From contig JALHNB010000031.1 of NCBI GenBank assembly GCA_022843745.1, positions 1 through 64,000 on the forward strand: DNA of 64,000 bases, in the 5' to 3' direction. This DNA is from Anaerolineae bacterium. GTDB taxonomy: Bacteria; Chloroflexota; Anaerolineae; Aggregatilineales; Phototrophicaceae. Positions 34,990-57,300 of the stretch are shown here, in pieces (position 1 is the first letter of the stretch; each line of letters opens with the position of its first letter). A program made the translations under genes and the position numbers. Below the pieces are notes generated by a model that saw only the letters and a program-made list of their open reading frames with translations, did no database searches and was not told where the DNA came from.

Positions 34990-36006
34990 ATGAAAAATTT
35001 GCGGAAAAGTCATAAGCCAAGCATGAGTGATGTGGCACGCCTCGCCGGGGTAAATCGCGTCACTGCTTCCGTCGCGCTCAATGGGTCATCACGTGCAGGT
35101 ACACGTGTCTCTGATGCAACCAGGTTGCGTGTGATCGAAGCCGCCAAAGAACTCGGTTACACGCCGAATGCGATTGCACTTGCCCTGCGTGGACAGCGCA
35201 CGAATATTATCGGTTATTACTCCGGTTACGAATTTCTGGATGCACACGATCCCTTTAACGCGACGATTTTGAACGGTCTGCAACGTCGCTGCCAGATGCA
35301 TCGTCAGGATTTGTTGATATTCGGCAGTTATCAGCGAAACTCGGTTGAAGAAGTTTACGCCTCGCTGGTCAACGGCAAAATTGACGGTCTAATACTTTTA
35401 CCGACTCCCCACAGCCCGGTTCTTGACGAACTCCTGCAATCTCATCTGCCCGTTATCGCGGTTGCTAACCCTGTGCCAAATATTGCCTCTGTAACCGTTG
35501 ATGACATCACCGGATCGCGTTTGCTGGCGGAATATCTTGCGCAGAAAAAGCATCAGAGAATTTTGTATCGTGCTGATCCCGGCGAGCACACCTCAACGAC
35601 TCGCCGTCTGGAGGCATTTCTGGAAGCTGCTGCCTCTTTTGATATGGATGTGCAGGTTTCGCGAGGGGAGAAAAATGGGCGGCTGCGGGCGGAGGAAATC
35701 GACATTCTGAGAACACCGCAGGAGTTGCGCCCAACCGTTATTGTCTCGTGGGTTGATTCACATGCTTATATGCTGTTAGAAGAACTTCGCGAATTAAATA
35801 TCCGTGTCCCGGATGACATCGCTGTTGTCGGTTTTGATGGCATTCGGCTAACGCCGCGACCATTTTGCGCCCTGACCTCCATACGCGCACCCTGGAATGA
35901 AGTCGCAGAAACGGCTGTTGATCTGTTAATGATGCTGATCGACGGTGAGAAGGTTGAACAGGAAACCATGCTGCCCGTCGAATTAGCGATTGGAGATACA
36001 GCTTGA
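34990..36006 (+). CDS. LacI-family transcriptional regulator
   Basis: The product is 338 residues. Residues ~12-60 are a LacI helix-turn-helix and hinge (MSDVARLAGVNRVTASVALN, then RVIEAAKELGYTPNAIALAL). Residues ~70-330 form a periplasmic-binding-protein-like sensor (GYYSGYEFLDAHDPFNATIL, VAVVGFDGIRLTPRP). The protein would bind a sugar or derivative and regulate the solute-binding and ABC genes that start 154 bases downstream on the same strand. Its operator is at 34937-34954. No second copy of the 18-bp palindrome was seen in front of the transporter genes, so direct control of that operon is not shown by sequence. Confidence 0.92.
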   Translation: MKNLRKSHKPSMSDVARLAGVNRVTASVALNGSSRAGTRVSDATRLRVIEAAKELGYTPNAIALALRGQRTNIIGYYSGYEFLDAHDPFNATILNGLQRRCQMHRQDLLIFGSYQRNSVEEVYASLVNGKIDGLILLPTPHSPVLDELLQSHLPVIAVANPVPNIASVTVDDITGSRLLAEYLAQKKHQRILYRADPGEHTSTTRRLEAFLEAAASFDMDVQVSRGEKNGRLRAEEIDILRTPQELRPTVIVSWVDSHAYMLLEELRELNIRVPDDIAVVGFDGIRLTPRPFCALTSIRAPWNEVAETAVDLLMMLIDGEKVEQETMLPVELAIGDTA

Positions 36007-36159
36007 TTATTTTGAATCCACAAACGATTGGCTGATTTTGGGTCAACGATCATGGAGAATGTATACAATATTCAAAAAATAAAGGAGTGTCTATGGCGTG
36101 ACGATTGGTTGTTGGATGAACTCACTCTTTGGAAAACTTAGAATTTGAGGGACAACTTC

Positions 36160-37788
36160 ATGAATAAACAGAACTTGATGTCTCGTCGCCAATTTTTAAA
36201 GACCGCTCTCGCAACAAGCGCAGCAGTGCTCCCGGTAACTTCGGTTCTGGCAAGCAGCGCCAGTGCGCCCGCACGTGTGCAAAGTGAAATTACGATTATA
36301 ACGAGTGGATGGCCGCTCACGCCTATGCCGACTGCCGAGGAGATCGAAGCGGACAAGGCACGGGCGGGTTATGCCGAAGCTTTACAAACCTGGCTTGATG
36401 AAAACCCCGGCGTTACATTCCAGCAAGTAGAGGTCAATATCTGGGATCAACAGGCGATTGTCACGGCCATTTCCGGTGGAACTGCACCAACCTATGTTTT
36501 CCCAACCTCAATTGGTGGATGGACCAACGCGGGTGCGCGAAATGCCTTTGTTCAGGGCTTGATGGCAGATGTTGGGCCAGCTATTGAGAAATATGGCTTG
36601 ATTGGAAAATTGACCCCCGGCGCACTTTCAGGCTGGCAGCCGATCAACGAGATTGGCGATGCTTATATGAGCTTCCCAATTGACTCGGGTATGGATGTTT
36701 TCCACTATCGGCGCGACCTGCTCAACGAACTGGGTATTGAAGAACCGCCGCTGGATTGGACATGGGATGACCTGATTGCTTTGGCGAAAGCGCTGACTGC
36801 TGAAGGCCGTCAGGGACTTGCCGCACCGACCTGGATGGCTGAAGCAATCCTCAGCGATCATGGATTTGATATACTCTCGCAAGTACCCTCGCCGCAAAAC
36901 GGCTGGAATTGGATGCGCGATACCAGCGATCCAAAATGGGTGGAACTGCTGACGGAATATCGCAAGCTGGTCTTTGAGGATAAAGCAGTCTATTCCGATG
37001 TATCTTACACGACGGATAACTTTACCAACGCTTTTGTGAACGGCGCTGTTGGCCTGATGCGGACGAACGTACTCGGCGCTTTTGGGTCGGCGGCACAGGA
37101 AAACAGCATGGCGGCGATGGCGAATCGTATCGGCAAGCCCTATGAAGAAGTGATCGGCTTCCGGGGAATTCCACGTGGCGATAACGGCTATTTCAGCAAT
37201 CCGATTTACGTCGGCGGCGTGGCTATCGGGCCGGACACGAATGACGAAACGCTCGATAAAGCATTGGGTGCGGTGGATTATATGTTCCTCGGCGCTGGCT
37301 GGGATTTGCAAAAGGCCGGACAGTATGCCGCCACGCAAGACCTCCAGGCGGTCTTCAACTACCCCATACCGATTGATGGAAAATATACCTATGAGGGTGT
37401 ACCTGGCGCGTTTGAAGATGCCTGGGGACAGCGCACAAAAGATGACATTCTCTACTATGCGGGTCTGCCAAAAGCGCCTGATGAAGCGCTCTATATGCCT
37501 GTGGAGCAAAATCCAGGCCCTGATAATCAGGCGTTCGAAGATGCCTGGTCAACCATAAACTACGTTGCTGATGAGGTTGACCCTGCTGCGGTGCTGAAAC
37601 AAGCGCAGGATACCTGGAACAGCCAGGCTGCCGGTTTCTCGTCAAGCGTGGATGATGCTGCATTCATTGATGGGGCGAAGACATACTACGAAGCACTCGA
37701 CGCTTTCTGGAAAGATGCTTCGCCAGAATTCTATGAAAGCACCTTCAAGCCCTGGTATGACAGCAAAGTTCTGCCCGCATTGGGTTAG
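36160..37788 (+). CDS. Extracellular sugar-binding protein of an ABC transporter (Tat-type signal)
   Basis: From ATG 36160 the product is 542 residues, preceded by GAGGG. The first 40 residues are a twin-arginine signal (MSRRQFLKTALATSAAVLPV). The mature part has the pattern of family 1 solute-binding proteins (VTFQQVEVNIWDQQAIVTAI, DLLNELGIEEPPLDWTWDDL, KALGAVDYMFLGAGWD). It would capture an oligosaccharide or glycoside in the extracellular space and deliver it to the two permeases encoded next. At 542 residues it is longer than MalE-like proteins, as is common for large-ligand (oligosaccharide) binders in Chloroflexota. Confidence 0.9.
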   Translation: MNKQNLMSRRQFLKTALATSAAVLPVTSVLASSASAPARVQSEITIITSGWPLTPMPTAEEIEADKARAGYAEALQTWLDENPGVTFQQVEVNIWDQQAIVTAISGGTAPTYVFPTSIGGWTNAGARNAFVQGLMADVGPAIEKYGLIGKLTPGALSGWQPINEIGDAYMSFPIDSGMDVFHYRRDLLNELGIEEPPLDWTWDDLIALAKALTAEGRQGLAAPTWMAEAILSDHGFDILSQVPSPQNGWNWMRDTSDPKWVELLTEYRKLVFEDKAVYSDVSYTTDNFTNAFVNGAVGLMRTNVLGAFGSAAQENSMAAMANRIGKPYEEVIGFRGIPRGDNGYFSNPIYVGGVAIGPDTNDETLDKALGAVDYMFLGAGWDLQKAGQYAATQDLQAVFNYPIPIDGKYTYEGVPGAFEDAWGQRTKDDILYYAGLPKAPDEALYMPVEQNPGPDNQAFEDAWSTINYVADEVDPAAVLKQAQDTWNSQAAGFSSSVDDAAFIDGAKTYYEALDAFWKDASPEFYESTFKPWYDSKVLPALG

Positions 37789-37853: not shown

Positions 37854-38786
37854 ATGGCAGAACGAACGATTCCAGGCGGACAAACTGAGGAAGCTATACA
37901 AGCTGCACCTGTTGAGTCCGCGCCCCTGCGCCTCAGCCGCCGCAGCCGGATTGAAAAATGGATGTTTATCATCCCCGCAGCGCTGTTTCAGCTTGTCTGG
38001 GGATGGTTTCCCCTTGTGTTTGCGTTTGCCCTTAGTTTTACCGATGCGCGTGTGCGCGGGCCGATTTCGTTTATCGGTTTACAGAGTTATACCCGCATGT
38101 GGGGCGATCCTCTCCTGGGGGAAGCTTTTCGTGTGACCTTTATCTACGCGGCGATGTCGATTGTATTGACGTTTGTGATCCCCATTCTGGTAGCAGTCTT
38201 ATTGATGGAAATGCCGCCGCGCGTCATGCGTTGGATGATGCTGCTCTGGTTTTTGCCATTAAGCGGGATTGCCAGCACGATCCTGTGGAAATATATGTAT
38301 AACCCGGAATATGGGCTGATGCAGGGCATTGTCCGTCTTTTGGGACTGCCGGAGCAGCGTTTTCTCAATGACCCGAATCTGGTGTTGTTCTGGCTGATCT
38401 TTCCCGGAATTCTGCTTTTTGGGCCGGGGTTGATCTATATGGCGGCGCTGCAAGGCATTCCCAGTTCCTACTATGAAGCGGCGGAGGTCGAAGGCGCGGG
38501 TTTCTGGCGAAAAATCTGGACGATTTCGCTGCCACGCCTGCGTCCGGTGATTTCGATGATGCTCACATTCGCCATCATCGGCTCATTGCAGGAATTTTAT
38601 TGGCCGCAGATCATGAGTGGCGGTGGGCCAGGCTCGGCTAGCCGCACTGTCGTGATGTATCTGTATAACTTGTGGGGAAATTTGCGATTTGGCGATTCGA
38701 CCACAGTCGCGATTTTCCTGTTTGCCATCATTATGGTGATTACCGTCATTTATCGAACCTTCTATAAGGAAGACCCTGATGCCTGA
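37854..38786 (+). CDS. Sugar ABC transporter permease (MalF/UgpA type)
   Basis: The product is 310 residues with six transmembrane helices. AGGAGG stands seven bases before the ATG. The signature loop for ATPase contact is EAAEVEGAGFWRKIWTISLP, the EAA motif of MalF-like permeases. It forms the channel with the next permease. It lies directly behind the REP-like palindrome, which might set a ratio between binding protein and permease expression. Confidence 0.93.
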   Translation: MAERTIPGGQTEEAIQAAPVESAPLRLSRRSRIEKWMFIIPAALFQLVWGWFPLVFAFALSFTDARVRGPISFIGLQSYTRMWGDPLLGEAFRVTFIYAAMSIVLTFVIPILVAVLLMEMPPRVMRWMMLLWFLPLSGIASTILWKYMYNPEYGLMQGIVRLLGLPEQRFLNDPNLVLFWLIFPGILLFGPGLIYMAALQGIPSSYYEAAEVEGAGFWRKIWTISLPRLRPVISMMLTFAIIGSLQEFYWPQIMSGGGPGSASRTVVMYLYNLWGNLRFGDSTTVAIFLFAIIMVITVIYRTFYKEDPDA

Positions 38787-38807: not shown

Positions 38808-39839
38808 ATGGCTCTTTTTCCAAAGGTTGGACGCAATCAGCCCCGGATGCGGGCGGCGTGGTGGGTATTAGTCATTTTTTTGTGTGGGGGAGTCGCCCTG
38901 CATTTATTTCCGTTTTTTTACATGATCGCGCTTTCGGTGACACCCGCGCATGAAGCCTTATCACCCACACCCGTCATCTGGCCGAAAGAACCTACGCTAG
39001 CAGCATGGCGGTTGGTATTTGAATTGACGACGCGCACGTCAATGGACACTGCTGTGCGTGACCTGATGAGCTTTCCATTTTATGTTTATCTCAGCAATTC
39101 ACTTTTCATGGCGCTGATGACCCTGTTAATCTCGCTGCCTGTCACATCGCTGGCGGCCTATGCCAACAGCAAATTGCAGCGCGGGCCGATGGCACGATGG
39201 TCATTTCTGTTTTTCATCGGCACGTTGATGGTTCCCGGCGTTGTGACGCTTATCCCGTCATTTTTGATGACGCGCAATTTTCCATTTCCACTGCCGTCCG
39301 CGCCGCTGATTCCAGGGACGGACGATCCATTTCCGATCCTTCGAATCTGGGATACACCCTGGGCAGTCATCATCCCCGGCGTGTTTAATGCCTTCAATTT
39401 CCTGCTCTTTAAGGGCTTTTTTGATACGATTCCTGACTCGATTATCCAGGCGGCGCGTGTCGATGGCGGCTCGGAATTTAACATTTTCCGGCGCATCGTC
39501 TTCCCGATGAGCATCCCGGTCTACGCCGTTGCTTCGTGGTTGCAATTCGGCTCGGTGTGGGATAGTTACCTGTGGCCGCTGGTTGTATTTCAGACTCCTG
39601 ACAGAATCCCGACATCCGTCGCGATCTCGAACCTGATGAATCGCTTCATTCAAGCCGGATCGACCAGCGCACAGCAGGCCGCCGCGCAAACTGCCTCCAT
39701 GCGCGAGATTCTGGAAGCCGGGTTGTCCTGGAACGGCCTGATGGTATTGGGTTTGCTGCAAACGATCCCGATTTTCATCATGTTTATCATTTGCCGTGAA
39801 TATCTGATGCGTGGGATTCGTCTGCGCGGGTTGAAATAA
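38808..39839 (+). CDS. Sugar ABC transporter permease (MalG/UgpE type)
   Basis: The product is 343 residues, preceded by GGAGG six bases from its ATG. It has about six transmembrane helices and the EAA loop QAARVDGGSEFNIFRRIVFP, typical of MalG/UgpE. It pairs with the upstream permease. The loop regions (residues ~45-80, ALSPTPVIWPKEPTLAAWRL) are longer than usual. Its TAA stop overlaps the ATG of the next gene. Confidence 0.93.
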   Translation: MALFPKVGRNQPRMRAAWWVLVIFLCGGVALHLFPFFYMIALSVTPAHEALSPTPVIWPKEPTLAAWRLVFELTTRTSMDTAVRDLMSFPFYVYLSNSLFMALMTLLISLPVTSLAAYANSKLQRGPMARWSFLFFIGTLMVPGVVTLIPSFLMTRNFPFPLPSAPLIPGTDDPFPILRIWDTPWAVIIPGVFNAFNFLLFKGFFDTIPDSIIQAARVDGGSEFNIFRRIVFPMSIPVYAVASWLQFGSVWDSYLWPLVVFQTPDRIPTSVAISNLMNRFIQAGSTSAQQAAAQTASMREILEAGLSWNGLMVLGLLQTIPIFIMFIICREYLMRGIRLRGLK

Positions 39840-40954
39840 TGACGCAAATCGAACTCCGCAACATCGTCAAGCAGTACGACAGCCAGGACCAGGTGACGCT
39901 GACGGGCTATAAAGGTGAACCCGCGCTGAATCGCATCAATCTGACGATTAATGATGGCGAAACCTTGAGTGTGGTTGGGCCGTCCGGTTGTGGCAAAAGT
40001 ACGCTGCTCAAGGTGATCGCCGGACTGGAATACCCCAACAGTGGGCAGGTGATCTACAGCGGTCACGATTTTACCGAGATCAAGCCGCAGGATCGCGGTG
40101 TCGGCATGGTGTTTCAGGACTACGCGCTGTACCCAACCCGCAAAGGACGCGGAAACCTGTCGTATTTTTTCGAAGTTCACCAGCGCACCGAGGAAGAAGA
40201 ACAAGCACGCATCAAGGCGACTGCTGATCTGATGGGTGTTGATTTTGACCTGCTCCTGGGGCAGATACCCGACACACTCTCCGGCGGGCAAAAGCAGCGC
40301 GTGGCTATCGCCCGCTGCATCGTGCGTGACCCCAATATTTTCCTGATGGACGAGCCGATTGTGAATCTGGATGCCAAGCTGCGCGAACGGACACGTATCG
40401 AGATCAAAAAGCTGCTGCGCCAATTTGGAATCACGACGATCTACGTGACGCACGACCAGCAGGAAGCTATTTTTATGGGAGATCGCATCGTCGTCATGCG
40501 CAAGGGCAATATCGAGCAGGTCGGTACATTTGACGATTTGTATTATTCGCCCGCAAATCTGTTTGTCGCGCAGTTCATCGGCACACCGCCGATTGCGGTT
40601 ATCCCGGCTGTTATTGAAAATGGGCAGATTGCGATTGAAACGACACGCTGGATGCTGCCACCTGACATCGCGCTGCCGAACGGCGCTGTCCGAGTCGGCG
40701 TGCGACCTGAAGGCTGGCGGCTGGATACGGACGACGGCATTTCGATGGCAGTGCGGCATATTGAGCGCATCCCAACCGAACGTGCGGCTTTCGTCATTGG
40801 CGCGGTAGCCGGAGCGCACACTTCGATTGTCGCGCCGGTTGATTACCCCATGCGAGAAGTGACGCGGGTAACGCCGGATTGGGAGCAGGCGCTGTTTTTT
40901 GAGGCCGAAGGCGAAACTGTTCTGCATACACCGGGCGTGCCGGATTTATTCTAG
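39839..40954 (+). CDS. ABC transporter ATPase, MalK/UgpC type (first of three)
   Basis: The product is 371 residues. Walker A GPSGCGKST is near residue 46, the signature LSGGQKQR near 147, Walker B IFLMDEP near 167, and ITTIYVTHDQQEAIFMGD follows. The D-loop reads IVNLDAKLR rather than the usual LSNLDAKLR. The C-terminal ~130 residues form the MalK-like OB domain. The helical region (GRGNLSYFFEVHQRTEEEEQ) is unlike that of the two other ATPases here. The gene is translationally coupled to the permease and probably drives the transporter. Confidence 0.93.
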   Translation: MTQIELRNIVKQYDSQDQVTLTGYKGEPALNRINLTINDGETLSVVGPSGCGKSTLLKVIAGLEYPNSGQVIYSGHDFTEIKPQDRGVGMVFQDYALYPTRKGRGNLSYFFEVHQRTEEEEQARIKATADLMGVDFDLLLGQIPDTLSGGQKQRVAIARCIVRDPNIFLMDEPIVNLDAKLRERTRIEIKKLLRQFGITTIYVTHDQQEAIFMGDRIVVMRKGNIEQVGTFDDLYYSPANLFVAQFIGTPPIAVIPAVIENGQIAIETTRWMLPPDIALPNGAVRVGVRPEGWRLDTDDGISMAVRHIERIPTERAAFVIGAVAGAHTSIVAPVDYPMREVTRVTPDWEQALFFEAEGETVLHTPGVPDLF

Positions 40955-41060: not shown

Positions 41061-42179
41061 ATGGAAATCACGGTTAATAATCTCACCAAGCGGTTTGAAG
41101 ACAAGCTGGCGGTGAATGACATCAGCTTCTCGATTGGTGAACATGAATTTCTGGTGCTGGTCGGGCCATCCGGCTGTGGCAAAACGACCACACTGCGCCT
41201 GCTGGCGGGTCTGGAAATGACCAGCGCGGGGGAGATTTACTTTGGTGAGCGCCGCGTGAATGACATCCGCCCAAAAGATCGCAACGTGGCAATGGTGTTT
41301 CAGGATTACGCGGTCTTCCCGCATTTGACCGTGTTCGAAAATATCGCTTACGGGCTGCGTTCACGGCGGGTCGCACGGAATATCATTCAGGAAAGCGTTC
41401 CGGCGGCGGCGAAAACTTTCCGCATTGACCATTTGCTCAAGCGTAAACCACGCCAGCTTTCCGGCGGTGAGCGTCAGCGGGTCGCCTTAGCACGGGCGTT
41501 GGTGCGCGATGCCGATATTTACCTGTATGACGAGCCACTTTCCAATCTGGACGCGCAGCTTCGACATCAGGCGCGGGAAGATATTCTGGCGCTGCACCAA
41601 CGTAAACTGCGCCCCAGCATTTATGTCACGCACGATCAATCCGAAGCGATGGCATTGGGAGATCGGATCGCGGTGATGCGTGGCGGAAAAATCGAACAGA
41701 TCGGAACGGGGACGGAACTTTACGAACGCCCTAATAATCAATTCGTCGCTTTTTTCATTGGTACGCCGAGCATCAACTTGTTTCAGGTAACACTGCGTGG
41801 GGAAGGCGAAGTGATTTGGGCGGATTCGTCGGCGTTTTCGATCCGCCTGCCAGAGGAGCTTTACCCCAAAATCCGCAGTCATGTCGGCAAAAAAGTTCAG
41901 TTTGGCATCCGTCCAGAAGATTTGCATGTGCCGAAACGTGCGCCGTTTCCAGTGGATGCCGATACCATGATCGGCGGTGTCGTCAATGTCATCGAGCCGT
42001 CCTCAACCGGAAGTTCGGTCTATATGAGTACATTAGGTGAGAAAAGCCAGGATTTTGTCGCTACCTTCAACCTGCGCTTGCCGGCGACTTATCTGAACAA
42101 AGAAATCGAGTTGGCGATGAATCTGCGCCGCGCACATGTATTTGATCTTGAAACGGAAAAATCATTGTTGTATTCATAA
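41061..42179 (+). CDS. ABC transporter ATPase, MalK/UgpC type (second of three)
   Basis: The product is 372 residues with Walker A GPSGCGKTT near residue 35, the signature LSGGERQR near 133, Walker B IYLYDEPLSNLDAQLRHQ near 153, and IYVTHDQSEAMALGD. The C-terminal OB-like domain is present (QFGIRPEDLHVPKRAP). GAGGAATTTAGCGT precedes the ATG. It resembles MalK more closely than the first ATPase does. No permease follows, so it either pairs with the permeases upstream or serves permeases encoded elsewhere. Confidence 0.93.
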   Translation: MEITVNNLTKRFEDKLAVNDISFSIGEHEFLVLVGPSGCGKTTTLRLLAGLEMTSAGEIYFGERRVNDIRPKDRNVAMVFQDYAVFPHLTVFENIAYGLRSRRVARNIIQESVPAAAKTFRIDHLLKRKPRQLSGGERQRVALARALVRDADIYLYDEPLSNLDAQLRHQAREDILALHQRKLRPSIYVTHDQSEAMALGDRIAVMRGGKIEQIGTGTELYERPNNQFVAFFIGTPSINLFQVTLRGEGEVIWADSSAFSIRLPEELYPKIRSHVGKKVQFGIRPEDLHVPKRAPFPVDADTMIGGVVNVIEPSSTGSSVYMSTLGEKSQDFVATFNLRLPATYLNKEIELAMNLRRAHVFDLETEKSLLYS

Positions 42180-42230
42180 ATCGGGTCGTAAAAATGTTTT
42201 GTTGTGTTCGTAAATCGAGACATAAAAATG
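42177..42230 (+). repeat. Direct repeat in the leader of the DUF624-like gene
   Basis: TAAATCGGGTCGTAAAAATG (from about 42177) and TAAATCGAGACATAAAAATG (ending 42230) are two 20-base copies 14 bases apart, each ending in ATG. The second ATG is the true start of the membrane protein. The first leads to an immediate dead end (MFCCVRKSRHKNAFF type reading). Confidence 0.6.
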
Positions 42231-42911
42231 CCTTTTTTTGAAAATACAGGCCTTGATCCAAATGTCGAGCGTGGGCCGCTGTGGGGCGCGTTCGCGACGC
42301 TGTTTGAGCAATTAGAGCGATTCATCGTCGTGAACATCGCCTGGGCGGGTCAGTCGATCCCGTTGATTCTGGCGCTGATGTTTCCCGATTGGTCGCTGTG
42401 GATTCGGATTCCGCTGATGCTGTACAGCGGATTGGCGCTGGCGGCGGCTACCGCGACGGCTTATGGCCTCATCTACGCGGCTGTTGATCATGAAACGTTA
42501 AATGTTGATCTGGTGCGCGATTATTTTGCGAAACTGGCGCTGCCGGGGATTCTCACACTTGCGCCGCTTTATGGTTTATTCGGCCTGCTGCTGGGGTTAG
42601 CCGCATGGACGGCAAGCAGTCCATCGCTGTTTATTCTGGATGTGCTGGTTCGCTTGCTTCTCATAGTCATATTGGTGTGCAGCATGTACTGGGGGCCGCT
42701 GTTGGCGGAATCGCCGTCGGACTCATTCGTCAGCATCGCGCGGCGTTCGCTGGTGCTGGTGTGGCGCGACCCCGGACGCACACTGCTCCTGCTGGGTGTG
42801 GTCCTTGTGGCGTTGATTATCGGCGCGATCTCGATAGGCGGCGTATTTCTAGCCGTGCCTGTGATGGTTGCGCTGCTGCAAACGCATATGTTTCTCGCCG
42901 TTCGTCGATAA
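42228..42911 (+). CDS. DUF624/YesL-like integral membrane protein
   Basis: From ATG 42228 (MPFFENTGLD) the product is 227 residues with five or six transmembrane helices (SIPLILALMF, LPGILTLAPLYGLFGLLLGL, LLLIVILVCSMYW, LLLLGVVLVALIIGAISIGG). The arrangement resembles YesL/DUF624 proteins, small membrane proteins found in sugar-ABC and rhamnogalacturonan gene clusters of Bacillus and others, where their role is unclear. It stands between two ATPase genes in the operon, suggesting an auxiliary function for uptake. The family call is tentative. Confidence 0.65.
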   Translation: MPFFENTGLDPNVERGPLWGAFATLFEQLERFIVVNIAWAGQSIPLILALMFPDWSLWIRIPLMLYSGLALAAATATAYGLIYAAVDHETLNVDLVRDYFAKLALPGILTLAPLYGLFGLLLGLAAWTASSPSLFILDVLVRLLLIVILVCSMYWGPLLAESPSDSFVSIARRSLVLVWRDPGRTLLLLGVVLVALIIGAISIGGVFLAVPVMVALLQTHMFLAVRR

Positions 42912-42945: not shown

Positions 42946-44064
42946 ATGAGTTCGCTGGAAGTACGCGGCCTGGTGAAACGTCTTGGCGGTAATCTGGTCG
43001 TCAATGACATCAATTTTAGCATCGAAGAAGGTGAATTTTTTGTACTCCTGGGCGCTTCTGGCGGGGGTAAAAGCACGATTCTGCGTTTGATTTGTGGCCT
43101 GGAACAGCCCGATCAGGGTCAGGTCATCATCGGTGGTCGCGACGTGACTCGCCTGCCGCCGCGTGATCGCAATCTGGGAATGGTGTTTCAGGATTACGGC
43201 CTGTATCCCAACATGAACGTTTTTCAGAATGTTGCCTATGGGTTGGAAGCGCGTCGGATGAATCGCGATGAGATTCAGCAGCGTGTAACGACTGCCGCCA
43301 AAATGGTCGGCCTGAGCGATATGATCGAGCGTTCGATTGTCGATCTTTCGGGTGGCGAACAGCAGCGTGTGGCTTTGGCGCGGGCGTTGGCGAAGGATGC
43401 CGATGCTTATCTGTTTGATGAGCCGCTTTCGAACCTCGACCCCAAGCTGCGTCATCAAGCGCGGCGCGACATCATGAATCTGCATCGCCAGAAGCGTAAG
43501 CCGAGTTTATACGTTACGCATGACCAGACCGAAGCTTTTGCGATGGCTGACCGAATCGCGATTATGTCACACGGCAAATTGCAGCAAATTGGCACAACGG
43601 ACGAACTGCTGCAAGCGCCCACCAATATTTTCGTGGCACAGTTTATCGGTTCACCACCCATGAATCTGATGGACGGCGAGGTGCGGCGCACGAGTGATGC
43701 TTTTCAGATCTCTATCAGTGACAATTTAACGGTCACGCTGCCGGATCGCTGGAAACCGATTTTGAATCGGTATGGCAAATCCAGAGTCGTCATCGGCTTT
43801 CGCCCGCAAGCGGTGATGCCTTCGTCGGATGTGATCGAAGCCGATCAGCAGCAGGTCGAATCCTTCATGGGAGAGGTCGAAAATGTCGAAGCCTTAATCG
43901 GTGAGATGGTCGTCATCATCAAGTTGGGCGAAAAGCGAAGCATCGCGGCAGTGTTTCAGGACAGCGGTCAGGTTGAGCCAAATCCTGGCGACCATGTGTC
44001 ATTCGCGCTCGATGTCAATCAGGTTTGCCTGTTTGACCCGGACAGCCAGCAGGCGATTACCTAA
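42946..44064 (+). CDS. ABC transporter ATPase, MalK/UgpC type (third of three)
   Basis: The product is 372 residues with Walker A GASGGGKST near residue 36, the signature LSGGEQQR near 135, Walker B AYLFDEPLSNLDPKLRHQAR, and LYVTHDQTEAFAMAD. It has a C-terminal OB-like domain (VIGFRPQAVMPSSDVIEAD). Three complete MalK-type ATPases in one operon with only two permeases is unusual. The TAA stop is directly followed by the ATG of the GroEL-like gene with no spacer, so the two are co-translated. Confidence 0.93.
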   Translation: MSSLEVRGLVKRLGGNLVVNDINFSIEEGEFFVLLGASGGGKSTILRLICGLEQPDQGQVIIGGRDVTRLPPRDRNLGMVFQDYGLYPNMNVFQNVAYGLEARRMNRDEIQQRVTTAAKMVGLSDMIERSIVDLSGGEQQRVALARALAKDADAYLFDEPLSNLDPKLRHQARRDIMNLHRQKRKPSLYVTHDQTEAFAMADRIAIMSHGKLQQIGTTDELLQAPTNIFVAQFIGSPPMNLMDGEVRRTSDAFQISISDNLTVTLPDRWKPILNRYGKSRVVIGFRPQAVMPSSDVIEADQQQVESFMGEVENVEALIGEMVVIIKLGEKRSIAAVFQDSGQVEPNPGDHVSFALDVNQVCLFDPDSQQAIT

Positions 44065-45642
44065 ATGATTTCATCACGCGATTCTTTAAGACATCTGCGG
44101 CGCGGATTTGACGAGTTAGCTGCTTTACTGGCGCTGACTCTGGGGCCGACGCAGGGAACAATATTTTGTACCGGGTCAGCCCGTAATACCGTCGAGATTT
44201 TGACCGACTCCGGCACGATTGCCCGCCGTGTGATCGCGCTGCCAGATCGTCAGGCCGATGTCGGCGCGATGCTGCTGCGGAATATGGTGTGGGGTGTGCA
44301 TGAGCAGTACGGGGATGGCGCGGCGACGGCGGCTGTGCTGGCGCAGGCAATCGTGCGCGAGTCCGCGCGGATGATCGCCGCTGGTGCGAATCCAATGCTG
44401 CTGCGCCGAGGAATCGAGCGTGGAGTCGAGGCTGCGGTTACGGCGCTGAACACACAAGCTGTGTCGATCAGCGGGCAGGCGGCGCTCACACGGATTGCGC
44501 AAAGTGTCACGGGCGACCACGAACTCAGCAAGATTTTGGGCGAGATGTTCGACATGCTCGGTGCGGATGCCGCCATCGAAATCGAGGAATACGCCGCGCC
44601 CTATCTGAATCACGATTATCTCGATGGTGGACGCTGGCGAGCGCGTCCGGCAGCGCGTGTCTTTTTGCCCGAAGGTAAGCCGGAACTCATCCTCGAAAAT
44701 CCACTTGTGCTGGTCGCCGACGAAAAAATCGAACGTGTTGACATGATTCGGCGGCTGTTGGAGAGGGTTGTCGGCGAATTTAAAAAGCGACCTTTGCTGA
44801 TCGTCGCGCCAGGGATCAGCGGCGAGGCGTTGAACGCGCTTTCGATGAATCACGCGCGTGGCACTTTGACGATTGGCGCGGCAGTTATCACGACCTCCGG
44901 CGCGAATCAGGATGATGATTTGCAGGACTTAGCGGTTTTGACTGGCAGTGTTCTGCTTTCGAGGCAGCGGGGGCAGCACGGGGATTTTGGGCAGGCACGG
45001 CGTGTGATTCTGACGCGCGATACGTTGACGATTATCGGCGGCGCAGGCGATTCCCCCGCGAAACAGGCGCGAATTACGGCGCTGCATGGGCAAATGATGC
45101 GAATCAAGCAGGATAGGGAACGTCTGCGAATGCGCATTGGGCGGCTTACAGGCGGGGTCGGCATCGTCAGAATCGGCGCACATACCAAACGCGAACGGGA
45201 TATGCGTAAAGAACAGGCGAAAAAAGCGCTGCTTGTGCTGGAATCGGCGCTGACAGAAGGCGTTTTACCCGGCGGGGGGACGGCCTATCTGGACTGTATC
45301 CCGGCGGTGCTGGCGGCACACAAAGGCTGCGATGGTGATATTGCGTTTGGTATCGGTGCTGTGGCCTCGGCTCTGGAAGCGCCATTTTGCCAGCTTGTCC
45401 ACAATCACGGCCATGTTGCGCCGCAGGTAGCGCTCAACGCCGTCAAAAAAATGGGTGTGGGACATGGCTTTGATACCCTGACTGGAAATTATGCTTGTAT
45501 GGCTGAGGTCGGCGTGATGGATAGCGTTCGAGTGCTGCGTGGTGTGCTGACCGCCGCCGCTAGCACCGCGATTATGGCGATCACGACAGAAGTGATAATC
45601 CTCCATGCCGATCACAATCGCCCCGCACAAGTCAAACCCTGA
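44065..45642 (+). CDS. Highly divergent GroEL/Cpn60-like chaperonin in a sugar-uptake operon
   Basis: The product is 525 residues (GroEL is about 548). Recognisable group I chaperonin blocks are LALTLGPTQGT, TDSGTIARRVIALPDRQADV, GDGAATAAVLAQAIVRES, AAGANPMLLRRGIERGVEAA, EGVLPGGGTAYL and AITTEVI near the C-terminus. The ATP-site aspartates equivalent to GroEL D52 (TDSG) and D87 (GDGAAT) are present, but the position of D398 is Lys in EQAKKALLVLESAL, so hydrolysis is probably lost or very slow. The apical domain is reduced and the GGM tail is missing. No GroES gene is near. The start ATG directly abuts the upstream stop. It may have become a scaffold or a dedicated chaperone for the transporter or the following propeller protein. 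Function is unknown. Confidence 0.85.
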   Translation: MISSRDSLRHLRRGFDELAALLALTLGPTQGTIFCTGSARNTVEILTDSGTIARRVIALPDRQADVGAMLLRNMVWGVHEQYGDGAATAAVLAQAIVRESARMIAAGANPMLLRRGIERGVEAAVTALNTQAVSISGQAALTRIAQSVTGDHELSKILGEMFDMLGADAAIEIEEYAAPYLNHDYLDGGRWRARPAARVFLPEGKPELILENPLVLVADEKIERVDMIRRLLERVVGEFKKRPLLIVAPGISGEALNALSMNHARGTLTIGAAVITTSGANQDDDLQDLAVLTGSVLLSRQRGQHGDFGQARRVILTRDTLTIIGGAGDSPAKQARITALHGQMMRIKQDRERLRMRIGRLTGGVGIVRIGAHTKRERDMRKEQAKKALLVLESALTEGVLPGGGTAYLDCIPAVLAAHKGCDGDIAFGIGAVASALEAPFCQLVHNHGHVAPQVALNAVKKMGVGHGFDTLTGNYACMAEVGVMDSVRVLRGVLTAAASTAIMAITTEVIILHADHNRPAQVKP

Positions 45643-45652
45643 GCGAACACTG

Positions 45653-47377
45653 ATGACTGACACGACTGATATGACTAAAGTGACTGACCAATGGCATTTT
45701 TACCCTCAAATCGAACAACCTTGTCCGGTAATGGCCTTGACAGCCGACACGGATTCGCTCTGGGCGGGTGGATATGGCGGGGTTGCGCACTATGTTCACG
45801 AATCCTGGCAGCCACAAACTGCCGGATTACATCTGACATCCGTCGCGGCACTGGCACGGGTAGAGAATTGGTTATTTGCGGGTGGGGCAGGCGGGATCGC
45901 GCGTTCGGGAGATGATGGCGCAAGCTGGCAAGCAGCCGGAATTCAGGGTGATGTCGGGGCAGTCACGGCAATCGCCGCATCGACCAATTTTAAGCAGGAT
46001 TCGACGGCGCTTGCGGCAACACTCTCTGGCGGAATTCTGCGAACAACGAACAGCGGGGCATCATGGATACCTGCGAATTTCGGGATCATGTCGTTCGAGA
46101 TAACGGCCTTAGCATGGCTGAACGCGGATATTGTTCTAGCCGCAACCATTGACGGCATCTATCGTTCGCCGAATGGTGGGCGAGCCTGGAGGATTTGCGA
46201 AGGAACATCAGGCGGGCCATTTACGGTGCTGGCGGTTCTGCCAGATGGCGCGATGCTGGCGGCTGTGGAATTTGGCGGCCTTTTGCGTTCAGACGATGAC
46301 GGCCTGACCTGGACGCATCGCGGCGATCTTCCGCCAGATATTCAGGTCACAACGATCCTCGCGATAGGCGACACGATTTTTGTCGGCAGTTTTTCGCACG
46401 GGATCCTATCTTCAACCGATAACGGTCAAACGTGGCAAGCGCTGGTGGAAGGCACGGTCTTCGTGATGGCTGCTGTTGGCGACACGATTTACGCCGGAAC
46501 TGATGAAGGCATTCTGGTTGGCACGGGTCAGGATTGGCATTTGCTGTCCACGCCACTGAACGATCTTCGCCGATTGCTGGTCGTGAATGGTTGTCCGTTA
46601 GCCTACGGAACCCATTCAACACCCGTAATTGACCAGAACGATTGGATAACGCTGGATGCTGTCCCGCTGCCAGTCACGATTCTTGCGTCTGCGCCGGATG
46701 GAGCGCTGCTGGCTTCGAGTCCGTCAGGCCTAGTGTGTTCGCGGGATGGCGGTAAAACCTGGGTAAGCGCGATATCAGGTATGTCAGGCTGCTTACATTT
46801 CATCACATTTCGGGCAGACGGTACGGGTTTCGCGGGCAGCGCAGATGGTTCGCGACTGCTCCGAACGCATGATTTTGGCGTAACGTGGGAAAACCTGTCG
46901 CCACCTTTTGGCGTTTTGCCGCTGACCGCACTCCAATTATTCGATGCTCAAATCGGGATGCCTGCGATGCTCATCGCCGCGACTTTCGACCCCCGCCGCA
47001 ACATCGCACAGTTGTGGCGTTCGCTGACTGATGGGAACACGTGGGAGTGTGGGGCGGAAATCAAAGTCAATTGGCCGCTTGTTTTGACACTCGCAAATCC
47101 ATCGCTGTTCACTATTGGCGGGCAGGCGCTTTTATGGCAGCCAGATGGTCAATGGGATACGCGCAAGGTAGGGGACGGCAGTGGCATCCGGCGCATGGTT
47201 GGTAATGTGCATGTGCTGTTTGCGTTGACAACAAGCGGGATTTTTCGCTCTGGCGATTCAGGATTGGGTTGGGAGCTTCAGGATACGCCGTCAACCCAGG
47301 TTGTTGACCTCGCGCTTGATGGTGAGACCCTTTATATCTTATTGGCTGGCGGACAGGTGTGCCGCCGTGAAATATAA
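45653..47377 (+). CDS. Cytoplasmic BNR/Ycf48-type beta-propeller protein
   Basis: From ATG 45653 (MTDTTDMTKVTDQW) the product is 574 residues. Ten or so repeats of the form S.D.G..W (ARSGDDGASWQAAG, RTTNSGASWIPA, RSPNGGRAWRI, RSDDDGLTWTHRG, CSRDGGKTWVSA) mark BNR/sialidase-like blades, as in photosystem-assembly Ycf48 or vacuolar sorting-type propellers. No signal peptide is visible, so it stays inside the cell, unlike most BNR propellers. The gene starts 10 bases after the GroEL-like stop and both lie in the sugar operon. A joint role of the two products is suggested by the spacing only. Confidence 0.82.
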   Translation: MTDTTDMTKVTDQWHFYPQIEQPCPVMALTADTDSLWAGGYGGVAHYVHESWQPQTAGLHLTSVAALARVENWLFAGGAGGIARSGDDGASWQAAGIQGDVGAVTAIAASTNFKQDSTALAATLSGGILRTTNSGASWIPANFGIMSFEITALAWLNADIVLAATIDGIYRSPNGGRAWRICEGTSGGPFTVLAVLPDGAMLAAVEFGGLLRSDDDGLTWTHRGDLPPDIQVTTILAIGDTIFVGSFSHGILSSTDNGQTWQALVEGTVFVMAAVGDTIYAGTDEGILVGTGQDWHLLSTPLNDLRRLLVVNGCPLAYGTHSTPVIDQNDWITLDAVPLPVTILASAPDGALLASSPSGLVCSRDGGKTWVSAISGMSGCLHFITFRADGTGFAGSADGSRLLRTHDFGVTWENLSPPFGVLPLTALQLFDAQIGMPAMLIAATFDPRRNIAQLWRSLTDGNTWECGAEIKVNWPLVLTLANPSLFTIGGQALLWQPDGQWDTRKVGDGSGIRRMVGNVHVLFALTTSGIFRSGDSGLGWELQDTPSTQVVDLALDGETLYILLAGGQVCRREI

Positions 47378-50420: not shown

Positions 50421-51344
50421 ATGTTAGAAACGATTGTTGTTGCAATTGATGATCTAAAAAGAGGCGAAGAGGCCATTGCTCATGCGGCAATGCTGGCTAC
50501 TCCATTTTCTGCTCGTGTATTGGTGGCAGGCATAACGGAGCAAATCGGTGGCTCAAGGGGCGAAAAATTCACTGACCCGGTAATTTGGGGCATGAGGAAA
50601 TCCGAAACGCAGGCAACATTAAATCAACATGTGCGCCACCTTGAGGAACAAGGGATTGAGACAAGCGTCGATATTATCGAGGTTTCGACAGTCGAGTCGC
50701 TGCTTCAGTATGCTGAAGATGTCGAGAGCGATCTGCTCGTAGTGGCCTATGATCCCGACACATCAGCACCCATGATTCGGTCTATTTTGAAACACTCAAA
50801 AACGCCGGTTTTTCTCACCCGCGCTGGCTGGACAAAACCAGCTTTTACTAACATTCTCTTACCACTCGACGGCTCTCAACGTGCGGAAAGCGGCTTGACA
50901 CTCGCAACGATGCTTGCAAGGTCGATGAATGCCGAACTGCACCTCGCGCATGTCATTCCACCCTTGGAAATGCCGGGACAGCCGATTCTCTCAAGTGAAA
51001 TGTCGGAAATTGCTCGACAGCTTATTGAGAAAGGTTCGAATGAAGCAAAACGATACCTGGAACAAACGGCATCCCGACTTCCAGTGCCAGCCAAAACACA
51101 CGTTATTGTAAATGGAAGCGTGACGACTTCACTGCATAACCTGGTTTTCAGCGAAGACATCGACTTGATGATTTTGAGCGCACATGGATATTCTGGCGAA
51201 CCACAGTGGCCTTTTGGGACGGTTGCCGAAAATGTCGTGAACTATTGCAAAGTTCCAACTATTCTCGTACAAGACCTTCCTGCATATTTTTCCCACTCGG
51301 AAGCCGAGCCAACACGCATCGTAAACGGAACCTACCAGGAGTAG
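50421..51344 (+). CDS. Universal stress protein with two UspA domains
   Basis: The product is 307 residues. Two tandem Usp domains are visible: residues 1-138 (MLETIVVAIDDLKRGEEAIA, ESDLLVVAYDPDTSAPM) and about 145-300 (FTNILLPLDGSQRAESGLTL, LMILSAHGYSGEPQWPFGTV, VPTILVQD). The second domain keeps the G..G...G(S/T) ATP-binding pattern and the first does not clearly. Such proteins bind ATP or AMP and respond to stress. It precedes the giant glucan synthase gene by 34 bases and may be co-transcribed with it. Confidence 0.9.
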   Translation: MLETIVVAIDDLKRGEEAIAHAAMLATPFSARVLVAGITEQIGGSRGEKFTDPVIWGMRKSETQATLNQHVRHLEEQGIETSVDIIEVSTVESLLQYAEDVESDLLVVAYDPDTSAPMIRSILKHSKTPVFLTRAGWTKPAFTNILLPLDGSQRAESGLTLATMLARSMNAELHLAHVIPPLEMPGQPILSSEMSEIARQLIEKGSNEAKRYLEQTASRLPVPAKTHVIVNGSVTTSLHNLVFSEDIDLMILSAHGYSGEPQWPFGTVAENVVNYCKVPTILVQDLPAYFSHSEAEPTRIVNGTYQE

Positions 51345-51378: not shown

Positions 51379-54300
51379 ATGCTTGATGATTTAGTGGCCG
51401 AGTTGGCGGGGTCATTACCTGATGTTTCAAAAACTAAAGGTAAATCCCTGCCAATTTTTGAACAAATTGAAGATTTGGATGCGCGGTTAAAGCAAGCGCA
51501 TACGGATTTCACCCAAATTGCGCAAAAAGAACTCGTCATTCCCTATGCTGGCGAATGGTTTCTGGATAACTTCTACATTGTGCAGCAGGCGGTACGTCAA
51601 ATATCTGAGGATATGCCGTCTGAATACTATTACGAGCTGCCAAAATTAACTTCTGGCCCGCTGGAGGGTTATCCCCGTGTTTACGCGCTGGCACACAAAT
51701 ATGGGCGTTATGTTCATGCGCGTGTGACCCAGGAAGACCAACTCGAATTTATCCAGGCTTATCAACAGCACGCCACATTGACAACGGGTGAATTATGGGC
51801 CTGGCCGATCATGCTGCGTGTCATGGTGCTGGAAAATCTAGTCATGGCTTTGGATCATATCGAGGACATCACGACGCCAGAGCTGATTCCAGATGCCATT
51901 CGAAGCGATCAGGATGCCGACCTTGACCCTGATGCGATTGTCTCAAACTGCATTATTGGCTTACGAGCCATCAATATTCAGAATTGGCGTACATTTTTTG
52001 AGGATGCGAGTCGGGTTGAACTCATTTTGCAGAATGACCCTTCCGGCGTGTACGAGAATATAGATTTTGCCACACGCGATTGCTATCGTCGCAAAATCGA
52101 GGAATTAGCCAATCATTCCCCGAAAAGTGAGGAAGAAATCGCGCAGGTCGTTTTGCAATTGGCACAACGGGCTGAAGCGTCTCACGGTGACAAGGATGAA
52201 GTTTCATTTAACCGTACCACGCATGTTGGCTATTATCTGATTGCTGCTGGGTTGCAGGATGTCGAAGCAGCAATCGGATACCAGAAGCCATTTCTTGAGC
52301 GTTTAGGGCGCTGGGCAAAACGTCGCGCTCTACTGCTCTACGTTAGTGCGACTCTGCTTTTGAGCATCGCGATCATCGCAGCCGGAATGCATTATGCCAC
52401 ACTCACACGTGGAACTACCGCGCAAATCCTCACCGTTCTACTGCTCCTGGTGATTCCAGCTTCAACAGTTGCGACTCACTTTGTGAACTGGATCGCCAAT
52501 AAGTTAGCTACACCGAGTGTGCTGCCAAAGATGGATTTTAAGGCAGGCATCCCGGCTGCTTATCCGACGATGGTTGTCATTCCGGCGCTGCTCACAGATT
52601 CGGATGAAATTGATTCGCTGGCAGATCAGCTCGAACAGCATTACTTGAGAAATACCGACCCACAACTCTATTTTGCGATTCTGGCGGATTATCTTGACGC
52701 GGATGAAGAACATGTTCCAGGGGATGAAACCCTGCTGGAACACGCGAAATTGCGTTTGCACGAACTCAATACGAAATATCAGACGGAAGACCATCAGCCT
52801 TTTTATTTCTTTTTGCGGAGTCGGCAGTGGAACCCCTCCGAAGGCAAGTGGATGGGGCATGAGCGTAAACGTGGCAAGCTCATGGAATTTAACCATATCC
52901 TGCTCGATGCACACGCCGAAACATCCTATATCCTCAAATTAGGCAAGCTCAGTGTCCTAAGCAAAATTGTCTATGTCATTTCGCTTGATGCCGATACAGT
53001 ATTGCCGCGTGATGCCGCACATCGTCTGGTTGGTACGTTCGCGCATCCCTTAAATAAAGCACAATTTGACTCGAATGATCGCATTGAAGCAGGCTTCACG
53101 ATTTTACAGCCGCGCGTCGAAGTGATGCCTACCGCCGCCAATCAAACGCCTTTCACCCGCATTTTCGCTGGTGAGCGAGGGTTAGACCTCTATACGCTGG
53201 CGGTATCCGACGTTTATCAGGACTTGTTCGGCGAGGGTATTTACGTCGGCAAGGGTATTTACGATGTTGCCGCTTTCGAAAGAAGCCTGAAGAATCGCAG
53301 CCCGGAAAACGCACTCTTAAGCCACGACCTTTTCGAGGGTTTACATGGACGCGCGGCGCTTGTCACCGATATTGTCCTTCTGGAAGATTACCCCTCCAAT
53401 TATCTGGCATCCATGAATCGCCTGCACCGCTGGATACGCGGTGATTGGCAGTTACTACCCTGGCTGCTTCCGCGTGTGCCTGATGCGAAGGGTGGTTACG
53501 TCGCCAATATTTTTTCCGCGCTCGATATCTGGAAGATTGTTGATAACTTGCGCCGCAGTCTGCTTCAACCATCTCTGTTGTTTTTGATACTTGCCGGTTG
53601 GCTGTGGCTGCCAGGGTCAGCTTTTGTGTGGACAGCGCTGGCGACACTGGTGCTGATGACACCATTTCTGATTGGCATCGCTGGTCAGCTTGATCGGAAG
53701 ATTTTTTCCGTTTTCAGCGATAGCTCGCAGCGAGAACGATTGCTCGTCATTCTCCTGCGCTGGGGATTATCATTTGCCTTTTTACCTTATGAAGCTATCG
53801 TCCGCCTGGATGCCATTTTCACGACCCTTATCCGCTTGCGACAACGTAAACACCTGCTCCAGTGGACAACCGCCGCAAGCGCAGCCCGAATGTTTCAACA
53901 GGGGTCATTGGAGGCGGTATGGCGGCGTATGTCGTCTGCGCTCATTTTTGTTGTGGTCGTTGCTGTCATCGCCGCATTCATTCATCCGCAAAGCCTGTTC
54001 ATCTCGATTCCGTTGGTCATCCTCTGGTTGAGCAGCCCGATTCTTGCAAATCGAATCAGCCAACAGCCGGAGGAAAAACCCCGCGAGATTACCGATGATC
54101 GGGAACTGCGGACTCTGGCACGTCGGACATGGCTCTATTTTGAGGAATTTGTAGGCCCAGGCGATCATTGGCTGCCCCCCGATCATTATCAGCAGTCACC
54201 TAATGGGAAGGTCGGGCATTACACCTCGCCCACGAATATTGGCCTTATGCTGCTTTCAACATTGGGTGCGTATGATCTGGGATATATTGGCTTACTTGAA

Positions 54301-57300
54301 TCGCTGCTGCGTTTGCGTTTTGCCTTCGAAAGTATTAAACGGCTGGAACATTATCGTGGACATCTGCTGAATTGGCATAATACCCAGACCCTTCAACCGT
54401 TACCGCCACGTTATGTTTCTACTGTCGATAGTGGTAATTTCGCTGGCACTTTATTGGTGCTGAAGCAGGGCTTTAACGATTTGCTGAATGCCTCACTGCT
54501 ACGGCCTCAGCGCTGGCAGGGGATTATTGACACGCTCGATGTCATTAGCGAAATTCTCGATGATATTAACAGCCCCGCGCCGGATGTTCGACGTCAGTTG
54601 AAGGAAATGCGCGGTCAGGTGCTTGCTGCTCAACAAAGGCCGGAGTCCAGATCGGCTGAATTGAGTGGGATTATGACTGACCACTGGAAACCCCTGAGTG
54701 AAGCGATTCTCGCTTTTGTCGAAGGTGCGGCGGATGTTTCTCATCTGAAGGATTTGCGTATTTATGTCGCGCGACTGCACGCACATCTGAGTGGTATGCG
54801 CCGTGATATGGAACTCCTGCTGCCTTGGCAGATTCTTTTGGAGGATGTTCCTGTTTACTTGTCCAACCCCAGTGCTGAAATTGACGGCGCCTGGCGTGCC
54901 TTGAATCGTGAATTCGCGATCCCACCTCACCTCGGCGATATGAAACAGATGTATGACCGGGTTGAGGCGCGGGTGAAGGCGCTCATCCATATACTGGGTT
55001 CGGATGCTGCTGCTGACGAAGCGCGTGCATGGTGTCAGCAGTTGCATGAAGCGATCAGCACGGCAAAAAGCGCGGCTCATGATCTGTTGGCCGATTTCCA
55101 CTACATACAGGATCAAATAGAGGCCGAATTTCAGGGCATGGACTTCAGCTTCCTTTACAGTGAGGAGCGTCATTTTTTCCATATCGGCTACAACGTCGAT
55201 GCGGAACGTCTGGATAACAGCTATTACGATCTCCTGGCTTCAGAGGCGCGTCTTGCCAGCTTCCTCGCCATTGCAAAGCGCGATGTCCCACAAAATCATT
55301 GGCTGCAATTGAGCCGCCCCGTCACTCTGGTCAACAACGTGCAATCCCTGCTCTCGTGGAGTGGCACGATGTTTGAATATCTGATGCCACTTTTGCTGAT
55401 GCGCAATTATTCCGGCACACTTCTGCATCAAAGTTATGAAGCTGTTGTCAATCATCAAATTCAGTATGGAAAGCAGCACGACATTCCCTGGGGAATCTCT
55501 GAATCGGGATATTATGCTTTCGATGGCAGCCAGAATTATCAGTATCATGCTTTTGGAATTCCGTCGCTGGCACTCAAGCGCGGGCAGGATCGCGACCTCG
55601 TGATTACCCCTTATGCCTCGGTGTTGGCTCTGCCCATTAAGCCGCAGGCCGTATTGGAGAATATCCGTGCTTTAAAAGCACATGGCGCATTGAGCACACA
55701 CGGACTTATTGAAGCTATAGACTACACACCTTCGCGTTTGCCGGTTGGTCAGGAACATGCCGCTGTGAGGGAATACATGGCGCATCACCAGTGCATGATT
55801 TTCCTAACGCTGACAAATTTCCTGAACGATAACATCATGGTTAATCGTTTCCACAGTGACCCGCGTGTAAAAAGTGTCGAACTGCTTTTAATGGAGCAAG
55901 TTCCGCATGAGATGACGGCTGAGGAAAAACCTGCGCAGGAGATTGAACAGAATATTCCGGTTCCATTTTTGTCACTGAACCCCTGGGAAGTGTCGATAAA
56001 TTCACCATTGCCGGACGTGCATTATCTCTCAAATGGTCAATACGCCGTAATGATAACGAACGCAGGCGGGGGTTATAGTCAATGGAAGTCGCGGGCAATC
56101 ACCCGATGGCGTGCGGATACGACCCTGGATGACAGCGGCACGTGGATTTATCTCCGCGATGAGGATACAGGCGCGGTCTGGTCGCCAACTTTTCAGCCTA
56201 TTGGCGGCAGTGCTGATGCGATAAAGGCCGTGTTTCATCCGCATAAAGCCGAATTTTTGAATCGCAGGCATGATGTTTCGTCACGGATGGAAATTCTCGT
56301 TCCGCCGGATGATAACCTTGAGATTCGCCGCTTATGGCTGACGAATCACACCCCGGATGTACGCCGTTTGCTTGTGGCGAGTTATGGTGAGGTGGTTCTT
56401 GCCACGCAAAACAGCGATCAACGTCATCCAGCGTTTAACAAGATGTTTATCGAAAGTGAGTATGTGCCGGAACTGCAAGCTTTAGTATTCCGGCGGCGAC
56501 CACGTTCGGAAAACGAAGAATCGCTCTATGCGCTGCACATGCTCGTATCGCCTTCTGGCAAATCAGACATCCAGTATGAAACGGATCGGGCGCGTTTCCT
56601 GGGGCGTAATCGAATCTCTCGTAACCCGATCATTTTGGATGCGCAAACTCAACTCAGCGGGACAACGGGTTCGACGCTCGATCCGATTATGGCACTGGCG
56701 CAGACCTTAGAAATTCCTGGTCATTCAACAGTTGAAATGGCCTATATCACATTGGCCGGAAATTCACGCGAAGAGGTGTTAGCGCTGGCGCGGCTTTATC
56801 GCCAGTTTGCAAAAATTGAGCAGGCATTCGATCAATCCCGTTATCGCAGCGAACGAGAATTGCGTCGTCTCAAGCTGGATACCCAACATATTGCTGCTTT
56901 CCAAAAACTGCTCTCGGCGATGCACTATCCACACGCACTGTTTCGCGCAGAGCCTCATATCCTGGCCTCGAATACCAAGTCGCAATCTGGCTTGTGGGCT
57001 TATGGGATTTCGGGCGATCATCCCATTGTGCTGGTACAGGTCAAAGACGAAGAAGAACTTGCGCTAGTCGGCGATTTGCTTCAAGCGCACCGTTTCTGGC
57101 GAAATCGAGGCTTTGCCAGTACGTTGGTTATCCTGAATCAACGCGATACGGGCTACATGCAGGAACTTTATAACCAGATTCACCGATTGATTGTGCGGGC
57201 AGGCAGCGAGACCTGGATCAATCGGCACGATGGCATTTTCATTCTGCGGGCTGAGCAAATGAATGATGCGGATCGGATTCTGCTTCAGACATCCGCGCGT

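Follow-up and report, generated by a model that had tools for sequence, protein, structure and literature searches.

Genomic context of the chaperonin gene

The window, which is the whole stretch of 64,000 nucleotides analyzed here (contig JALHNB010000031.1 of an Anaerolineae bacterium), carries on its forward strand a sugar ABC transporter operon that includes a chaperonin gene. The features of this region are given below together with their basis, where L074 is a locus from the same bacterial family and L147 a locus from another class of the phylum.

34990–36006, + strand: LacI-type regulator (sequence; L074 has a homologue in the equivalent position)
36145–37788, + strand: substrate-binding protein with TAT signal (PF10518; homologues in the equivalent position of L074, 38%, and L147, 32%)
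37854–38786, + strand: ABC permease 1 (L074 has a homologue with 71% identity in the equivalent position)
38808–39839, + strand: ABC permease 2, MalG/UgpE-like (PF00528, E 5e-13; NCBIfam MalG)
39839–40954, + strand: MalK/UgpC-type ABC ATPase, ABC1 (Pfam, NCBIfam)
41061–42179, + strand: MalK/UgpC-type ABC ATPase, ABC2 (Pfam, NCBIfam)
42204–42911, + strand: membrane protein TMx, 235 aa, no Pfam match (conserved in L074, 49%, and L147, 44%)
42946–44064, + strand: MalK/UgpC-type ABC ATPase, ABC3 (Pfam, NCBIfam); its stop abuts the chaperonin ATG
44065–45642, + strand: group I chaperonin homologue of a clade lacking D398, 525 aa (PF00118 and TIGR02348 matches, AlphaFold2 model)
44206–44208, + strand: codon of Asp48, the retained equivalent of GroEL D52 (alignment)
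44314–44316, + strand: codon of Asp84, the retained equivalent of GroEL D87, in GDGAAT and not GDGTTT (alignment)
45223–45225, + strand: codon of Lys387 at the position of GroEL Asp398, the catalytic base (alignments)
45604–45639, + strand: C-terminal tail ending in KP instead of (GGM)n (xP end in 61 of 68 clade members)
45653–47377, + strand: BNR/YCF48-like tandem beta-propeller, most likely cytoplasmic, 574 aa (weak PF15902, PF14870 and PF02012 matches; AlphaFold2 model)

ABC3 and the chaperonin gene are joined without a gap (TAA directly followed by ATG), and the start codon of the propeller gene is located 10 nucleotides past the chaperonin stop. L074 retains the complete gene order (LacI regulator, substrate-binding protein, permeases 1 and 2, ABC1, ABC2, TMx, ABC3, chaperonin, propeller). 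In L147, the substrate-binding protein, both permeases, TMx, the chaperonin and the propeller follow each other without the three ATPases, and L055 has the order ABC1, ABC2, ABC3, chaperonin, propeller. The conserved order in L074 and L147 and the gene junctions bear out an earlier note on this DNA, which had described a chaperonin within a sugar ABC operon, directly after an ABC ATPase and followed by a cytoplasmic propeller. When the operon was scanned for promoters and terminators, no excess over shuffled sequences was detected.

The segment 39839–44064 (+) contains three MalK/UgpC-type ATPase genes for a single pair of permease genes. Inspection by eye indicated intact Walker and signature motifs in all three ATPases; all three are also present in L055, and L074 retains their order. 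The TMx copy of L074 gave a weak DUF624 (YesL) match. Shortly downstream of the operon, a gene at 51379–59850 (+) encodes a protein of 2823 aa that is of the cyclic beta-1,2-glucan synthase (NdvB) type and combines a Glycoamylase domain with the supersandwich and catalytic domains of GH94. Tandem universal stress protein domains are encoded between the operon and this GH94 gene (50421–51344, +). In two distant genomes, at L074 (12734–14398) and L147 (4595–6304), the gene after the propeller is FAD-dependent and tryptophan-halogenase-like; the propeller of the window is not followed by such a gene.

Sequence and predicted structure of the chaperonin

The open reading frame at 44065–45642 is intact and uninterrupted. 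Its product matches Pfam Cpn60_TCP1 (PF00118, E 9.4e-36) and, over the full length, the GroEL model TIGR02348, where it scored 321.6 bits versus a cut-off of 582.1 and thus falls outside this equivalog. Identity with E. coli GroEL and the solved GroELs is about 33% (phmmer E 2e-74, residues 6–520). Thermosome/CCT models scored 25–45 bits, and the best matches were GroEL models.

For residue mapping, the protein was aligned with E. coli GroEL and 74 other sequences, and the alignment was anchored on the ungapped EGVLPGGG block. Here, we found Lys387 at the D398 position, Asp48 and Asp84 at the positions of D52 and D87, and Asp486 at that of D495. The phosphate loop reads GDGAAT in place of GDGTTT. 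The nucleotide-pocket motifs T25 L26 G27 P28 (TLGP), D84, G403–405 (GGG) and D486 are present. The protein ends with NRPAQVKP, the (GGM)n tail is gone, and P525 is nearly invariant in two alignments (A1 and A4). The lysine, the two retained aspartates and the missing GGM tail had all been read correctly from the sequence in the earlier note. Its description of the apical domain as short was overstated, since this domain (179 residues versus 186 in GroEL) is merely 7 residues below GroEL. That note had also named an aspartate at the D398 position of a structural alignment as evidence against its reading; sequence and profile alignment, used in place of a structural one, placed no aspartate there. 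Misalignment at this position was considered and ruled out: no gap interrupts the alignment from RIGA to PGGG or the EGVxPGGG anchor, and all close relatives concur.

Additional functional positions of GroEL are altered. The apo-state salt bridge R197–E386 is lost (A193, K375), and so are inter-ring contact residues of this copy (R452 to C442, E461 to V451, E434 to G424). Four of the eight classical substrate/GroES-binding positions are clearly changed (Y199P, Y203V, L234R, V263S), and V264 is replaced by Met.

An AlphaFold2 model computed from a 17-row alignment (A4) had a mean pLDDT of 87.7 and a pTM of 0.81. It matched the Cpn10-bound Cpn60 of Thermus (TM 0.89 over 520 columns, Foldseek E 1e-41), and according to phmmer, AlphaFold2 and Foldseek the three-domain Cpn60 fold spans the full length of the protein. 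GroES-bound open subunits (4v4o, 8wuc, 1aon, 3wvl) gave TM values of 0.85–0.89 versus 0.57–0.60 for apo subunits, in a single unpaired prediction without a canonical control. The open-like model and the lost apo-state salt bridge would be compatible with an open-state bias, but this is weak evidence.

A chaperonin clade without D398 in Chloroflexota

Searches of relatives, of the class and of the phylum, together with a scan of genome contigs, yielded a sample of 68 non-canonical chaperonins, mostly from metagenomic assemblies. In an IQ-TREE quick search (LG+C20+F+G4 PMSF), these 68 rows formed a single clade (SH-aLRT 100). D398 is absent in 58 of them, which carry Lys (17), Gln (12), Glu (11), Arg (10), His (4), Asn (3) or Ala (1) instead. 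The other aspartates are largely retained (D87 in 53/57, D52 in 51/56, D495 in 56/57). Ala or Ser mostly takes the place of G53, position 89 (Thr in GroEL) is mostly occupied by Ser, Ala or Cys, and T90 is replaced by Ala or Val. Among the xP termini, EP (25) and NP (18) are found, and canonical relatives usually end with a Met/Gly/Pro-rich tail. R452 is often kept in other clade members, and many of them retain most apical hydrophobic positions.

A family profile search, with the threshold set from local scores between the clade and the canonical groups, indicated that at least 68 of the 346 genomes of the class have a clade member. When all bacterial genomes were scanned with two peptide patterns specific to the branch of the window protein, 19 loci were retrieved, all of them from Chloroflexota. 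This branch groups the window protein with L055, L074, L147, L154 and L156 (SH-aLRT 100), and all of these proteins carry Lys at 398. On the tree, the distribution of D and non-D at 398 requires two changes, one of which involves L084, a long branch of unsure placement. D398 was apparently lost once in the clade.

Nine close clade pairs, all without D398, gave dN/dS ratios of 0.07–0.25 (Nei–Gojobori), and these data clearly indicate purifying selection in relatives of the window gene. The window gene has no close pair, and for this reason we infer selection on this copy from its intact relatives, which are 47–52% identical. Decay to a pseudogene is ruled out for the clade by the dN/dS ratios and the intact reading frames. 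The term degenerate, which the earlier note had applied to this chaperonin, is misleading, since the change is common to a large clade that evolves under purifying selection. In the open-access literature, we found no description of a Chloroflexota chaperonin paralogue or of a bacterial chaperonin-propeller operon.

The genome (7.96 Mb, 117 contigs) contains four chaperonin genes. Two of them, on contigs C10 and C37, are canonical and share 57% identity with E. coli GroEL over aligned positions. The two divergent ones are the window gene (contig C31) and L093 (C1, 20318–21925), which also lacks D398 (Arg at 398, Asn at 52, QP end) and sits in a separate operon of its own, consisting of substrate-binding protein, permeases 1 and 2, chaperonin and propeller. 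The only groES adjoins the C10 groEL, and none is located beside the window chaperonin.

Linkage to a beta-propeller and to sugar permeases

The AlphaFold2 model of the propeller is all-beta (pLDDT 89, pTM 0.85), and its best Foldseek matches are two-propeller GH74 xyloglucanases (TM about 0.58). A hydrophobic N-terminus was present in 0 of 46 propeller homologues, and therefore the propeller is most likely cytoplasmic, like the chaperonin.

Of the 64 clade members with enough flanking sequence, 41 have a BNR/YCF48-like propeller gene immediately 3' of the chaperonin and in the same orientation, compared with 0 of 25 canonical groEL genes (Fisher p 5e-9, uncorrected for shared descent); the remaining 23 have no recognizable propeller immediately downstream. 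Propellers of this family were found neither in 20 random 18-kb stretches nor in 20 canonical control regions. Viewed from the other side, 27 of the 30 best propeller matches in the class adjoin a clade chaperonin. One of the three exceptions, L247, is a short locus, and the chaperonin of this genome lies near the end of another contig. The D398-bearing clade members L137, L138 and L140 are also paired with the propeller, and so, by parsimony, the pairing predates the loss of D398.

A 769-aa reading frame at L099 was considered as a chaperonin-propeller fusion and rejected, as it is an out-of-frame read-through over a propeller gene split in two frames (6900–8400, − strand). No reading frame bearing both chaperonin and propeller domains was found. 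Further downstream, L099 contains the start of a signal-peptide-bearing protein that resembles an ABC solute-binding protein. In family f46 (L063, L061, L065 and relatives), no recognizable propeller follows the chaperonin; at L063, the next gene encodes a transaldolase/fructose-6-phosphate aldolase.

Of 53 clade members, 18 have a same-strand gene for a sugar-type permease within 6 kb, compared with 0 of 23 canonical cases and 1 of 20 random positions (p 6e-5, clade versus both controls, uncorrected for shared descent), and the positive cases are spread over about ten separate branches of the tree. Sugar-type ABC permeases are a recurrent neighbor, weaker than the propeller. Thus, the constant partner of the clade chaperonins is a cytoplasmic beta-propeller rather than a transporter.

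Proposed function and alternative explanations

Among general foldases driven by ATP, GroEL is the textbook example, with D398 as the catalytic base. Mutation of this residue (D398A) leaves ATP binding normal and reduces the ATPase activity to about 2–3% of the wild type, and the mutant is still able to encapsulate and fold proteins (PMC3813556, PMC3326522). Unfolded protein leaves the apical domains of D398A more slowly (PMC3813556). By analogy, we infer that the window protein works most like this mutant. It would keep the GroEL-type subunit fold, bind ATP and form rings, and from the lysine at 398 and the intact nucleotide-binding residues one would expect ATP binding with very slow turnover. 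Such slow hydrolysis would make it a chamber or holder that acts slowly or only once, and not a rapid foldase for proteins in general. The beta-propeller encoded by the next gene would be its main client or a stable partner. In this operon, the chaperonin-propeller pair may serve the sugar importer or be co-regulated with it; the link would be a functional one, in a sugar-responsive operon, and the propeller might act on the transporter or on its sugar.

Taken together, the loss of D398, the selection, the propeller neighbor and the location of some members in sugar-import operons suggest that the clade chaperonins are probably slow, single-client proteins rather than general folding machines. 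For the window protein, we give about even chances to a slow-cycling chaperonin that is dedicated to its partner propeller and was here recruited into a sugar importer operon. The wider proposal, an ATP-binding but nearly non-hydrolyzing chaperonin clade that handles a co-encoded propeller as its single client, parallels the CCT/BBS system and was repeatedly drawn into sugar-importer operons, is more tentative, and we lean somewhat against it. Gene neighborhood alone fits a client, a partner or a pathway companion alike.

Several other explanations were weighed. The earlier note had suggested a dedicated assembly factor, which would fold or assemble the MalK-type ATPases or permeases of the operon. 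The permease linkage (18/53 versus 0/23 and 1/20) speaks for such a role, as do the abutting ABC3 and chaperonin genes, the second operon of the same genome at L093 and further permease-linked cases (L166, L168, L170, L171). However, most clade members have no permease nearby and yet have the propeller, and the permeases diverge strongly across operons (23–30% identity), whereas the chaperonin-propeller pair persists. To our knowledge, MalK-type importers elsewhere require no such factor. We regard this role as improbable and not as the best reading, because the propeller, directly downstream in 41/64 cases, is the more constant neighbor, including in transporter-less and in earlier-branching, D398-bearing members. 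A non-folding scaffold or sensor is unlikely as well. Here, a ring or lower oligomer fixed in one nucleotide state would stably hold the propeller, and perhaps the ABC ATPases, and the complex would sense sugar or control the transporter. The loss of D398, of the apo-state salt bridge and of the inter-ring contacts (C442, V451, G424) is consistent with this, and so are the altered apical hydrophobic positions (Y199P, Y203V, L234R, V263S) and the similarity of the propeller model to carbohydrate-active GH74 propellers. On the other hand, the strongly conserved equatorial nucleotide motifs suggest that nucleotide binding and switching still matter, and many clade members retain most apical hydrophobic positions.

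An ordinary GroEL-like chaperonin would draw on the genome's only GroES and would hydrolyze ATP with another base, either D52 or, in some members, Glu. This would account for the conservation of D52 and D495, for Glu at 398 in 11 of 58 proteins and for the presence of one groES. We judge it quite improbable, since Lys, Arg, Gln, His and Asn at 398 are unable to act as a base, GDGTTT is altered in nearly all clade members, and the sole groES lies by the C10 groEL and not beside the chaperonin. The long branch and the missing catalytic residue might point to a functionless, decaying groEL duplicate, but intact reading frames in dozens of genomes, dN/dS ratios of 0.07–0.25 in relatives, an operon order kept in distant families and the conserved new tail make decay hardly credible.

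As a natural and old lineage kept under selection, the D398-less clade would reveal what a chaperonin does with ATP turnover nearly removed, a situation so far addressed only through the D398A mutant. The fixed propeller neighbor provides a specific candidate for the client, and the order of change is testable through living intermediates, which range from canonical chaperonins through propeller-paired ones with D398 to propeller-paired ones without it.

Comparison with known systems

By homology, the window protein is a group I chaperonin but not a canonical GroEL. It shares with E. coli GroEL/Cpn60 the fold, the TLGP and GGG nucleotide motifs and D52, D87 and D495. It differs in lacking D398, the GGM tail, a groES neighbor and the inter-ring salt-bridge residues, in having GDGAAT for GDGTTT and in scoring far under the TIGR02348 cut-off. 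GroEL D398A has lost the same catalytic position and serves as a model of slow hydrolysis, but it is an artificial point mutant made in the laboratory, whereas the natural clade carries Lys and other residues together with many further changes.

The chaperonin-propeller pairing, which is known here from gene linkage, resembles by analogy only that of the Bardet–Biedl chaperonin-like proteins with BBS7, a beta-propeller protein. The Bardet–Biedl proteins are eukaryotic and of group II (CCT) descent, whereas the window protein belongs to group I. BBS6, BBS10 and BBS12 are chaperonin homologues with altered ATP-hydrolysis motifs that stabilize BBS7 (PMC5534436, PMC2846930).

The closest bacterial precedent for divergent paralogues, although from another phylum, is chlamydial GroEL2/GroEL3, which the parts of the reports considered here describe as altered in the ATP- and GroES-binding regions and encoded away from groES (PMC1892554, PMC5904260); these parts report no propeller or ABC operon. 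With the corresponding models NF038370 and NF038369, the window protein scored 83.3 and 108.4 bits versus a cut-off of 600. The phage EL chaperonin is related to GroEL and functions as single rings that need no GroES (PMC7185714), but it is phage-encoded, has ATPase activity and occurs in an unrelated context. The partner propeller shares BNR Asp-box repeats and predicted tandem propellers with YCF48/BNR and GH74 proteins and differs from them in being apparently cytoplasmic, without a signal peptide, and genetically tied to a chaperonin.
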